A DNA stretch of 64,000 nt, taken from positions 1,423,650 through 1,487,649 of the forward strand of contig NZ_LR594487.1 in NCBI RefSeq assembly GCF_901686465.1, in the 5' to 3' direction. Source of the stretch: Halorubrum sp. DM2. Its GTDB lineage: Archaea > Halobacteriota > Halobacteria > Halobacteriales > Haloferacaceae. Below the pieces are notes generated by a model. It was given only the letters and a program-made list of their open reading frames with translations, was not told the DNA's origin and ran no database searches. Shown one piece after another: positions 39,809 to 44,614 of this stretch (positions are counted from its first letter, which is position 1; every line of letters begins with the position of its first letter). Made by a program: the position numbers and the translations under genes.

Positions 39809-41125
39809 TCAGTCCGCACCCGCCGCTGCGGTCGGCTCGTCCCCGACGTCGAGCGTCTCCTCGACCTGGGTCACGACCGCGACCAGCGCGACCGCGGCGG
39901 CCGCGGCCCCGACCGCGAAGGGAACGACGAAGCCGAAGCCGACGAGCCACCCGGACGCCAGCGGGCCGAGCGCGACGCCGAAGCCGAAGCCCATCGTCAG
40001 CACCGACAGGGTCGTGCCGGACTCCCCTTCCCGGGAGAGGTCGCCCGCGAGCGCGAGCGACGGCGCGAACACGAACGCGACCGCGACGCCCTGTCCGAGC
40101 CGGACCAGCGTCATCACGATTGGGTCGGTGACGATCCCCTGAAGCAGCGTCGTCGGGATGAGGAGGACGAAGCCGGCGAGGAGGAACGGCCGCCGGCCGA
40201 TCCGGTCGCTGGCCTGTCCGACGGGGACCTGAAGCAGGACGTTCGCGATGGTGACGGCCGCGAACTGGAGGCCGAACCACACAGGAGCCTGATCGAGCCG
40301 GACGTTCACCTGGTTCTGGAGCGTGGCGTACAGCGCGATGCACATCCCCATCGATATCGTCGCCAGCCCGAGGGCGAACACGGGGTCGAGCAGCCGGTCC
40401 TCGCCGCGGATCCGGATCGAGAGGTCCTCGCCGGCCTCGCTCGACTCGGCCGCGTCGTGGACGAGGAGGTAGACGAGCGCGAAGCTGAGGTACGCGCCGG
40501 CGCAGGCCGCGACGAACGCGGCGTCGAACCCGTCGAGCACCGGCAGGCCGACCGGGGAGAGGTCGTACGGTCCCGCCTCGACGACGACGCCCGCGAGGAC
40601 GGGGCCGAAGCCGAACCCGATCAGCCGGAAGGTGTTGAACACGCCGAAGTTCCCGCCGCGGTCCGCGTCGCTCGCGGCGTACTCGTTGACCAAGGCGACC
40701 GTCGCCGGGATAGTGAGCGCCGCGCCCAGCCCCTGTGCGGCCCGCAGCGCGACGAGGTGCCAGTACGCGTCCGCGAGGATGTAGAGGCCGCTCGCGGTTC
40801 CCAAGAGGAGGATTCCGACCAACACGAACGGGCGACGGACGCCGGTCCGGTCGGAGAGCCGTCCCGTGAACGGCTGCGAGAGGCTGTTGAGGAAGCCGAA
40901 AAGCGAGAGGACGAGTCCGATGAGAAGCGGTTCGGTCACGGTGACCGCGGCCGCGCCGACGCCGACCTCGGTCCCGATCAGCGCGTCGACATCGACGAGG
41001 TCGCTCGCGATGTACAGCGGCAGCACGACGATGAGAAAGGAGTTCCCGACCGCGCCGACCATCCGCGCGAGCGCCAACACGATCACGCGCCGATCGGTGT
41101 CGGTGACGCCGGAGACCAGCCCCAT
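39809..41125 (-). CDS. MFS transporter
   Basis: A 438-residue transporter with 12 predicted helices. The MFS motif A-like loops are GFLNSLSQPFTGRLSDRTGVRRP after helix 2 and VPVGQASDRIGRRPFLLAG after helix 8, giving the two-fold repeat. It is probably a drug/proton or solute antiporter; the substrate is unknown. A CTTTATCC box about 32 nt upstream supports the ATG. Confidence 0.88.
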   Translation of the reverse strand: MGLVSGVTDTDRRVIVLALARMVGAVGNSFLIVVLPLYIASDLVDVDALIGTEVGVGAAAVTVTEPLLIGLVLSLFGFLNSLSQPFTGRLSDRTGVRRPFVLVGILLLGTASGLYILADAYWHLVALRAAQGLGAALTIPATVALVNEYAASDADRGGNFGVFNTFRLIGFGFGPVLAGVVVEAGPYDLSPVGLPVLDGFDAAFVAACAGAYLSFALVYLLVHDAAESSEAGEDLSIRIRGEDRLLDPVFALGLATISMGMCIALYATLQNQVNVRLDQAPVWFGLQFAAVTIANVLLQVPVGQASDRIGRRPFLLAGFVLLIPTTLLQGIVTDPIVMTLVRLGQGVAVAFVFAPSLALAGDLSREGESGTTLSVLTMGFGFGVALGPLASGWLVGFGFVVPFAVGAAAAAVALVAVVTQVEETLDVGDEPTAAAGAD

Positions 41126-41225: not shown

Positions 41226-43010
41226 TCAGCGGGTCGCCGGCGTCCGCTTGTCGACGCCGCGGACCTCGAATCGCGCGCCACCGTCCGTGCCGGCCGTCGC
41301 CTCGACGGTCCAGCCGTGCGCGGTGGCGATCTCCTTGACGATCGCGAGCCCGAACCCGGTGTTCCCCGCCGCGCCGCTCTCGCCGGGTTCGAAGAGGGTG
41401 TCGGCCATCGCGGGGTCGATGCCCGGCCCGTCGTCCTCGACGAAGAACCCGTCCGGGAGGTCGCCGACGCGGAGCGAGACGTCGGATCCGGCGTGGTCGA
41501 TCGCGTTCCGCATCAGGTTCTCGAAGAGGTTCCGCAGGCGGTCCGGGTCGGCGAGCACCTCGCGGTCGGTCTCGACGGAGAGGGTCGCCGACGCGGTGTC
41601 GACGGTCGACCAGCTGTCGGCGGCGACCGCCGCGAGGTCGACGTGTACGGGGTCGCCGACCGTCTCGCCCTCGCGGGCGAGCGCGAGGGTGCGCTCGACG
41701 ATCGACTCCATCCGGTCGAGCGCGTCGAGGGCGGCGTCGAGGTTCTCCGCGTCGTCGGAGACCTCGCGCGCCAGCTCGACGCGCCCCTGCGCGACGTTCA
41801 GGGGGTTCCGCAGGTCGTGCGAGACGATGCTGGCGAAGGAGTCGAGCCGGTCGTTCTGCCGTTCGAGCGCCGCCTCGCGCTCTTTGAACGCCGTGATTTC
41901 CTCTTGGAAGCCGACCCAGTTCGTGACGGTTCCGTCCGCGTCGCTGATCGGGGCGATGCTCACCCGGTTCCAGAACTCCGTCCCGTCCTTGCGGTAGTTC
42001 AACAGCTCGACGCTCGTCGAGTCCTCGGCGTCGATCGCGTCGCGGAGCTTCCGGACCGATTCCTCTTCGGTGTCCGGTCCCTGAAGGAACCGGCAGTTGA
42101 CGCCGATCGACTCCTCGCGGCCGTACCCCGTCATCTCGACGAACCGGTCGTTGACGTACACCATCGGGTTGTCCTCGCGTTGCGGGTCCGTGATGGTGAT
42201 CCCGACCGGGGCCTCGTTGAGCGCCCGGGTCTTCGTCTCCAGCTCCTCGCGGCGCTCGCGCTCGTCGGAGACGTCGCGGAGGATGCCGACGCTGCCCTCG
42301 AAGCACTCGCCGTCGTACGGCAGCGCCGCCATGTGGTCCCGACACGGGACGGGGTCGCCTTCCTTCGGCACGATGTCGACGGAGAAGCGCTGGACGTCGG
42401 GACCGGAACTGGAGAGGATCGTTCCGAGCCGGTCCTCCGCCTCCGCGACCGCGGCGTCGTCCTTGATGAACCCGGGGGTACTCCCGATGATCTCCTCGCG
42501 GTCGTACCCGGTGAGTTCGGCGAACGGCTCGTTGACGAACCGGAAGACGCCGGTCTCGTCGACGACGTAGACGGGGTAGCCGAGCGCCTCGATGACGGTG
42601 GAGTAGCGCTCGGCGATCTCCTTGGTCCGGTACTCGTCGACGGCCTGATCGACGCGGTTCGCGAGCCGGCGGAGCTGCTCGGGACCGCCCTTCTGGAAGT
42701 AGCCGGTGACGCCGGCGTTGAGCGCCTGACTCGCGATCTCCTCGGACCCCTTGCCGGTGTACAGCACGAAGGGGATCTTCTGGTTGCGCTCGCGTACGGC
42801 GTCGAAGAACGCCAGCCCGTCCATCGGGGGCATGTCGTAGTCGCTGACGACGCAGTCGAAGGAGCCGTCGTCGAGCCGTTCGAGCGCGGCCTCCGGGTCG
42901 GTCTCGCTCGTCACCGCCACCGAATCGAGCTCCCGCTCGAAGTACGCCTCCGCGAGATCGAGGACCGACGGGTCGTCGTCGACGTGTAACACGTCGATCG
43001 CTGCGGACAT
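41226..43010 (-). CDS. Receiver-PAS-LOV-histidine kinase (putative blue-light sensor)
   Basis: A 594-residue soluble signalling protein. Domains in order: receiver (about 5-120, phospho-acceptor D57), PAS (about 135-250), a second PAS of LOV type (about 262-378), dimerisation/phosphoacceptor (H398 in SIVSHDLRNPL) and ATPase (about 480-590, with N, D and G boxes including FEDDGPGID and GFGLAIV). The LOV part has GVNCRFLQG with flavin-adduct cysteine C306, plus N338, N348 and Q369 at the flavin-contact positions. An output regulator is not encoded beside it. TTTATT precedes the ATG. Confidence 0.9.
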   Translation of the reverse strand: MSAAIDVLHVDDDPSVLDLAEAYFERELDSVAVTSETDPEAALERLDDGSFDCVVSDYDMPPMDGLAFFDAVRERNQKIPFVLYTGKGSEEIASQALNAGVTGYFQKGGPEQLRRLANRVDQAVDEYRTKEIAERYSTVIEALGYPVYVVDETGVFRFVNEPFAELTGYDREEIIGSTPGFIKDDAAVAEAEDRLGTILSSSGPDVQRFSVDIVPKEGDPVPCRDHMAALPYDGECFEGSVGILRDVSDERERREELETKTRALNEAPVGITITDPQREDNPMVYVNDRFVEMTGYGREESIGVNCRFLQGPDTEEESVRKLRDAIDAEDSTSVELLNYRKDGTEFWNRVSIAPISDADGTVTNWVGFQEEITAFKEREAALERQNDRLDSFASIVSHDLRNPLNVAQGRVELAREVSDDAENLDAALDALDRMESIVERTLALAREGETVGDPVHVDLAAVAADSWSTVDTASATLSVETDREVLADPDRLRNLFENLMRNAIDHAGSDVSLRVGDLPDGFFVEDDGPGIDPAMADTLFEPGESGAAGNTGFGLAIVKEIATAHGWTVEATAGTDGGARFEVRGVDKRTPATR

Positions 43011-43156: not shown

Positions 43157-44614
43157 ATGACCGGCGGGAGGACCGTCGGCGGGGAGACGCTCCCGGGCGC
43201 GGGCGGCGAGGACGCCGACGCCCCCGACCGGGTCGTCTGTCACGTCGACATGGACTGCTTTTACGCCTCCTGTGAGCGGCTGCGCCACGACGACCTCGCG
43301 GGCGAACCCGTCGTGGTCGGCATGGGGTACGAGCCGGGTGAGTCGATCGGCGCGGTCGCGACCGCGAGCTACGAGGCCCGGGCGTTCGGCGTCGAGAGCG
43401 CGATGCCGATCTCCGAGGCCCTAGAGCTGCTCCCCCGCCGCGCCGACGCGGACCCGGACGATCCGGACGCGCCGGACCCGGCGGAGACCGGACGATACCT
43501 CCCCGTCGACCTCGACTTCTACGAGGAGGTGGCGAGCGAGGTGAAGGACGTGCTGCGCGACTGCGCCGACACCCGCCGGGAGGTGAGCATCGACGAGGCG
43601 TACCTTGACGCCACCGACCGGACCGCGTGGACCGTCGCGGGCGGCGGAGACGAGACCGACGACGACCCCGCAGACCCCCCGCCGAGCGGCGCGGCCGGAC
43701 CGGCCGATGCGCGGACGCTCGCCGAGGGGTACGCCCGCCACGTCAAAGGGCGGATCGAGCGCGAGGCGGGGGTCCCGGCGAGCGTCGGCGTCGCGCCGAA
43801 CATGTCGGCCGCGAAGGTCGCCAGCGACGCCGACAAGCCGGACGGCCTGGTCGTCGTGCCGCCCGGCTCCGTCGCCGAGTTCCTCGCGCCGCTGCCGACC
43901 GCCGACGTCCACGGGGTCGGTCCGGTCACCGAGCGGACGCTGGCGGAACTGGGGATCGAGACCGCCGGCGACCTGGCCGCCGCCGATCGCGACCGGCTCG
44001 CCGACGAGCTGGGCGAGCGCGGGCCGGAGCTGTCCCGGCGCGCCGCCGGCGACGACGACCGCGAGGTGACGCCGACCGGCCTCCCGAAGAGCCTCTCGCG
44101 GGAGTCGGCGCTTCCGACGACCGCCGACGGGGCGACGAAGCGGGAGACGGTGTCGGCGCTCGCCGCCGACGTGGCCCGCCGCGCCCGCGAGCGCGGCTGC
44201 CTCTACCGGACCATCGGGATCAAGGCGGTCGAGCCGCCGTTCGACGTCAACACCCGCGCGAAGAGCCTCCCCGGTCCCGTCGACGATCCGGACCTCGTCG
44301 AGGAGGTGGCGCTGGACCTGCTCGGCGAGTTCGACGAGACGCCCGTCCGAAAGCTGGGCGTGCGCGTCTCCAAGCTGGACTTCGCCGAGACCGATCAGGC
44401 GACGCTCGGCGGGTTCGACGCGGGCGACGCGGAGGGAGGCGGGAGCGGCCGAGACCGCCGCGAGGAGGCCGACGGCGGAGACGGCGGCAAGCTCTCCGAC
44501 TGGGTCGGTGGCCCGCCGGAGCATGGGGCCGGGGACGCGGACGACGACCCCGAGGGCGACGAAGGCCGGCGGCGGACGGGTGAGGGACAGGCCTCGCTCG
44601 GCGACTGGTCGTGA
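43157..44614 (+). CDS. dinB: DNA polymerase IV (Y family)
   Basis: A translesion polymerase of 485 residues. The catalytic metal motifs are VDMDCFYASCE and SIDEAYLD. The HhH thumb segment VHGVGPVTERTLAELGI and the little finger follow. An acidic insertion of about 30 residues (about 163-190) splits the palm. The C-terminal tail (about 415-485) is disordered and carries two PCNA-binding-like motifs, DQATLGGF and the terminal GQASLGDWS. TTCTTAAG upstream is the likely promoter. Confidence 0.93.
   Translation: MTGGRTVGGETLPGAGGEDADAPDRVVCHVDMDCFYASCERLRHDDLAGEPVVVGMGYEPGESIGAVATASYEARAFGVESAMPISEALELLPRRADADPDDPDAPDPAETGRYLPVDLDFYEEVASEVKDVLRDCADTRREVSIDEAYLDATDRTAWTVAGGGDETDDDPADPPPSGAAGPADARTLAEGYARHVKGRIEREAGVPASVGVAPNMSAAKVASDADKPDGLVVVPPGSVAEFLAPLPTADVHGVGPVTERTLAELGIETAGDLAAADRDRLADELGERGPELSRRAAGDDDREVTPTGLPKSLSRESALPTTADGATKRETVSALAADVARRARERGCLYRTIGIKAVEPPFDVNTRAKSLPGPVDDPDLVEEVALDLLGEFDETPVRKLGVRVSKLDFAETDQATLGGFDAGDAEGGGSGRDRREEADGGDGGKLSDWVGGPPEHGAGDADDDPEGDEGRRRTGEGQASLGDWS

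Follow-up and report, generated by a model that had tools for sequence, protein, structure and literature searches.

Can a light signal and a phosphorelay input be received by one and the same haloarchaeal kinase? The question is raised by a gene in a 64,000-nucleotide stretch of the Halorubrum sp. DM2 genome (hereafter, the window), for which a preliminary description had proposed a LOV-domain hybrid kinase with a receiver at its N-terminus. Here, we report that the observation behind this proposal stands, that its interpretation is partly supported, and that its novelty was overstated.

Gene and domain order of the putative photoreceptor kinase

The genome consists of one contig of 3.45 Mb. 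Positions 41226 to 43010 of the window hold, by open reading frame analysis, one intact gene on the minus strand, a strand that the preliminary description had left out. It starts with an ATG at 43010 and encodes a protein of 594 amino acids, whose nearest named relatives, at 88 to 90% identity, are from Halorubrum species. A plus-strand open reading frame of 707 amino acids across the same interval was rejected as the gene, since homologues at 60 to 92% identity match the minus-strand protein over its full length.

Five Pfam domains, all scoring above their gathering cut-offs, were found in this protein. A receiver (REC) domain at residues 7 to 113 (42672 to 42992, minus strand, as for all features of the gene; PF00072, E = 5.5e-20) is followed by a PAS domain at residues 134 to 247 (42270 to 42611) and by a second PAS domain, spanning residues 268 to 374 in Pfam, which Pfam, PDB matches and alignment to YtvA together place as a LOV domain at residues 264 to 374 (41889 to 42221). 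HisKA/DHp (residues 390 to 448; 41667 to 41843; PF00512, E = 4.8e-13) and HATPase_c (residues 488 to 584; 41259 to 41549; PF02518, E = 2e-17) complete the protein. The proposed order of receiver, PAS, LOV and kinase was thus confirmed. The kinase part has the features of a HisKA-type sensor histidine kinase, with the phosphoacceptor His398 in the H box SHDLRNP and with an N box and the G boxes DDGPGI and GFGL in HATPase_c. Besides Y104, the receiver contains the residue set of a phosphorylatable domain, namely the acidic pair D12/D13, the acceptor D57, T85 and K107.

The term hybrid kinase is wrong for this protein, since it normally denotes a C-terminal receiver (PMC5847659), and the sole REC domain detected by Pfam lies at residues 7 to 113, with none after the kinase. 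The succession of an N-terminal REC, PAS and HisKA-HATPase is instead that of the REC-HisK class, which Galperin et al. (2018, PMC5847659) described for archaea, with no member characterised, and kept apart from hybrid kinases with a C-terminal receiver, a rare type among archaea. The archaeal REC-HisK proteins of that study share the REC-(PAS)n-HisKA-HATPase layout and a conserved phosphoacceptor Asp with the protein described here, whose second PAS is, however, a LOV domain, a domain that the study does not discuss. As predicted from its sequence, the 594-residue protein is an intracellular, soluble kinase of the blue-light-sensing class, with its receiver at the N-terminal input position. 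We consider it probable that this member of the haloarchaeal REC-HisK class is a soluble dimer and serves as a dual-input sensor histidine kinase, in which a canonical LOV domain adjoins the kinase. Domains, residues, conservation, spacing and nearest structures form the observed basis of this reading, and flavin binding, adduct formation, coupling, receiver phosphorylation and the response partner are its predicted elements.

The LOV domain and conservation of its pocket

The second PAS domain contains the motif GVNCRFLQG, with C306 at the adduct position (codon at 42093 to 42095). C306, N338, N348 and Q369, named as flavin-contact residues in the preliminary description, were found at these numbers and align with YtvA C62, N94, N104 and Q123 (46% identity over 136 amino acids); likewise, the FMN-phosphate arginines R307 and R323 and the glutamine Q310 align with R63, R79 and Q66. 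The best PDB sequence matches to the domain were YtvA (E = 5e-32) and other LOV proteins (E from 1e-29 to 5e-32), and over LOV plus kinase the best match was YF1 (E = 1.5e-38), so that at the sequence level the match is far above chance. In an AlphaFold2 model, the pLDDT of the LOV domain was mostly 89 to 97; YF1 ranked first in fold comparison, and the modelled domain could be superposed on the LOV domain of a Meiothermus protein with a deviation of about 1 Å. The overall pTM of 0.46 leaves the inter-domain arrangement uncertain, and we do not rely on it. The signatures of group A archaeal LOV domains, defined on the Lake Diamante set (PMC12202551), are present: the G-H turn reads RKDG, with the Arg and the Asp of RKD at its first and third positions; FWN is followed by Arg (FWNR); and W365 replaces the usual Phe. 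The NCBIfam equivalog cut-offs were not reached for YtvA_fam (176 of 250 bits) or BluLightHisKinLov (153 of 450 bits), which indicates that the kinase is related to these families via its LOV domain and is not a member. By all sequence and model tests applied to it, the second PAS domain is a LOV domain.

Conservation was assessed in 43 distinct orthologues from Halorubrum, with one record each from Halobellus and Haloplanus (60 to 92% identity). C306, Q310 and Q369 were invariant, N338 and N348 were each kept in 42 of the 43, and the arginines R307 and R323 were conserved as well. HisKA and HATPase_c were less conserved than REC, PAS and LOV, and H398 was nevertheless invariant, the kinase end of one frameshifted orthologue (L083) not being meaningful in this alignment. 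The invariance of the cysteine bears on the notion that the LOV domain binds flavin but chiefly senses redox state or oxygen, or is a constitutive module, with blue light not being the physiological signal. Such a role is conceivable, considering that LOV proteins can signal by flavin photoreduction without the cysteine (PMC4682037), and that the same genome retains two LOV-like proteins in which Pro replaces the Cys. A pure redox role would not need the cysteine, however, and C306 is retained down to 60% identity; we therefore regard this explanation as unlikely.

Natural variants of the pocket were found in two orthologues, both with the cysteine kept: L072 carries R307L and N338H, and L039 carries N348S. 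These exchanges could tune or abolish flavin binding. The orthologue of Halorubrum tebenquichense DSM 14210 (L083) has a frameshift just past the LOV domain, which amounts to a natural disruption with loss of the kinase end. Given the rare pocket variants and the frameshifted copy, light sensing may not be essential.

Signal route to the kinase and the role of the receiver

The AlphaFold2 model shows a helix at residues 373 to 417 (41760 to 41894), unbroken from the LOV C-terminus through His398 in the DHp, with a pLDDT of about 60 to 76 past residue 380. From the threonine of the DIT motif to His398 we counted 25 residues, and this LOV-to-His spacing was free of indels in the orthologues down to the Haloplanus protein at 60% identity, L083 aside. 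The same PAS-to-His spacing of 25 occurs in three further kinases of the genome, the LOV-less L021, L020 (REC-PAS-PAS-HK) and L026 (REC-PAS-HK), so that the LOV module shares its helical register with ordinary PAS domains. In a second LOV kinase of this genome (L022), the LOV-to-His distance is 18 residues, exactly one heptad less. Together, the spacings of 25 and 18 residues support the coiled-coil register mechanism put forward for LOV kinases (PMC6798134). All these figures are aligned spacings; an automatic count gave a few values of 35 to 41, and in the inspected examples an earlier VT had been mistaken for the DIT motif.

YF1, a fusion of the YtvA LOV domain to the FixL kinase (PDB 4gcz), is the nearest structure by both sequence and fold and likewise leads from LOV via a helix into HisKA/HATPase. 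In contrast to the protein described here, it is engineered, lacks REC and an additional PAS domain, and has a LOV-to-His distance of 34 instead of 25 residues. For YF1 linkers, 7n variants are light-repressed and 7n+1 variants light-activated (PMC6798134). A prediction of light polarity from this rule was dropped, as the difference of -9 equals 5 modulo 7 and is neither 7n nor 7n+1.

We propose that blue light would be absorbed by FMN in the LOV pocket and would lead to a C4a adduct with C306. Q369 would rearrange, and the signal would leave the domain along the helix that leads from the DIT motif to the DHp helix with His398, where a shift in coiled-coil register may alter the balance of kinase and phosphatase activity. 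Independently of light, phosphorylation of D57, either self-catalysed or through another kinase, may alter the signalling helices of REC and PAS and set the gain of, or the permission for, the same output, so that both inputs would act on one DHp helix. The phosphate of His398 would then be handed on to a response regulator on a different chain, probably one of REC-only or REC-HalX type whose gene lies elsewhere. The preliminary description had suggested that light and phosphorelay inputs could be combined; from the sequence this is plausible, because the protein is a kinase of LOV photoreceptor type with an intact N-terminal receiver. If it holds true, haloarchaea would have, in addition to their rhodopsins, a light pathway based on flavin.

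A different part for the receiver has to be weighed. It might be an internal phosphate sink or a scaffold in a kinase for which only light matters, with His398 passing phosphate to D57 in the same dimer or with D57 rarely being phosphorylated. REC and histidine kinase are joined in one chain, no upstream kinase has been identified, and phosphorylation may not occur in a sizeable part of the archaeal REC-HisK receivers (PMC5847659). Yet D12, D13, D57, T85, Y104 and K107 are present in all 43 orthologues, and such invariance of the switch residues suggests that phosphorylation is probably used. The N-terminal position of REC also matches that in LvrB of Leptospira (Rec-DHp-CA), where the receiver is an input and its phosphorylation activates the kinase core (PMC13269768). 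In both proteins the receiver is placed to control the kinase core via signalling helices; here, in contrast to LvrB, two PAS-type domains, one of them a predicted photosensor, lie between receiver and kinase. An internal sink or scaffold thus appears rather doubtful to us, and dual input is the reading that we follow.

Within the dual-input reading, we put forward only tentatively that the kinase is a coincidence detector, in which other kinases, by phosphorylating the receiver, gate the response to light, and a node in a haloarchaeal network with kinase-borne receivers as major phosphate targets. The genome encodes 29 HisKA domains over the cut-off versus 21 receivers. About nine of these receivers are located on kinases, eight of them by sequence or Pfam and the ninth (L148) judging only from the length of its open frame and the position of HisKA; Bat-type regulators carry two, confirmed REC-HalX proteins carry three, and the remainder belong to REC-only, CheB or short proteins. 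As kinases outnumber free receivers, we infer that receiver-bearing kinases are plausible phosphate targets.

The output pathway was given as not known in the preliminary description, which is still true, and no response regulator gene adjoins the kinase among its neighbours. One may ask whether the neighbours themselves hint at the output, i.e., whether the kinase is a blue-light switch for translesion synthesis or for a transporter. A dinB-type gene for a Y-family DNA polymerase (43157 to 44614, plus strand) lies divergently within about 150 bp and is nearby in most Halorubrum loci, and a gene for an MFS transporter (39809 to 41125, minus strand) lies downstream of the kinase gene in the same orientation, at a distance of 100 bp, and co-transcription of the two is possible. 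However, the entire neighbourhood is syntenic across the genus, neither gene is beside the Haloplanus orthologue (L082), the MFS gene is absent from some Halorubrum loci (L077, L079, L089), and the kinase has no DNA-binding domain. A link of this kind is very unlikely, and an assignment of function from either neighbour was ruled out as reflecting genus-level synteny.

Relatives, origin and further LOV proteins of the genome

Orthologues with at least 71% identity were present in 45 of 52 Halorubrum genomes, which makes the gene near-core; the match tally was 47, and two genomes (G122, G145) were set aside as paralogue-level at 42 to 43% identity. Across the order, 297 of 392 genomes matched a DNA pattern for GxNCRFLQG; the reversed pattern, used as a control, matched none of the genomes listed. 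LOV kinases with receivers were already described in haloarchaea in 2014 (PMC4844311) and 2025 (PMC12202551). Thus, the remark in the preliminary description that LOV proteins are known from some haloarchaea was an understatement, and the kinase falls into a class known from earlier work on these organisms; its sequence is unsurprising. The published archaeal LOV kinases with REC, PAS or GAF domains (PMC4844311; Lake Diamante, PMC12202551) resemble it in their N-terminal REC and PAS, LOV and C-terminal histidine kinase, in their halobacterial origin, and in their group A signatures, and in these two studies no full-length protein was assayed as a kinase. ALovD-1, a group A domain, showed a photocycle at up to 3 M salt, the first for an archaeal LOV domain (PMC12202551); unlike the LOV domain described here, it occupies the middle position among three PAS domains of another kinase. 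None of the papers found reports a test of kinase output for an archaeal LOV kinase. The present protein would be a good subject for one, being near-core in Halorubrum, with conserved functional residues and a LOV-less paralogue as a natural control.

This paralogue, a REC-PAS-HK protein of the same genome (L021, 3534-4973), shares the PAS-to-His spacing of the LOV kinase but not its LOV domain, and is 62% identical to it over REC-PAS and 49% over the kinase. LOV-less homologues are patchy in the genus (10 of 52 genomes). In a REC-PAS tree, a Halorubrum and Haloplanus LOV clade (support 100/99) was nested among LOV-less clades with a support of 84/87, and more distant relatives also carry LOV. 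With nesting at only 84/87 and LOV in distant relatives, we make no call between gain of LOV by a REC-PAS-HK protein and its loss from one.

Three further LOV or LOV-like proteins were seen in this genome. The second LOV kinase (L022:3727-5214; C1 about 341726-343213) has the motif GEDCRFLQG, with Asp replacing Asn before the Cys. A Bat-type regulator with the order REC-LOV-GAF-BAT-HTH_10 (L023:3955-6066; C1 about 2483954-2486065) carries GRNPRFLQG, with Pro replacing the Cys. The third, a short LOV-like PAS protein of 184 amino acids (L024:4549-5103; C1 about 2681548-2682102), has GRNPRLFQG, also with Pro for the adduct Cys. Relatives of this short protein occur in 61 of 167 genomes of the family and in 16 of 28 genera, and Pro occupies the adduct position in all 15 copies with a readable motif. 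In 17 of 20 loci, the majority of which had only 1.5 kb of flank, its neighbour is a gene for a phytoene-desaturase-like FAD protein, and this conserved cysteine-less LOV protein adjoining a probable carotenoid gene merits separate attention.
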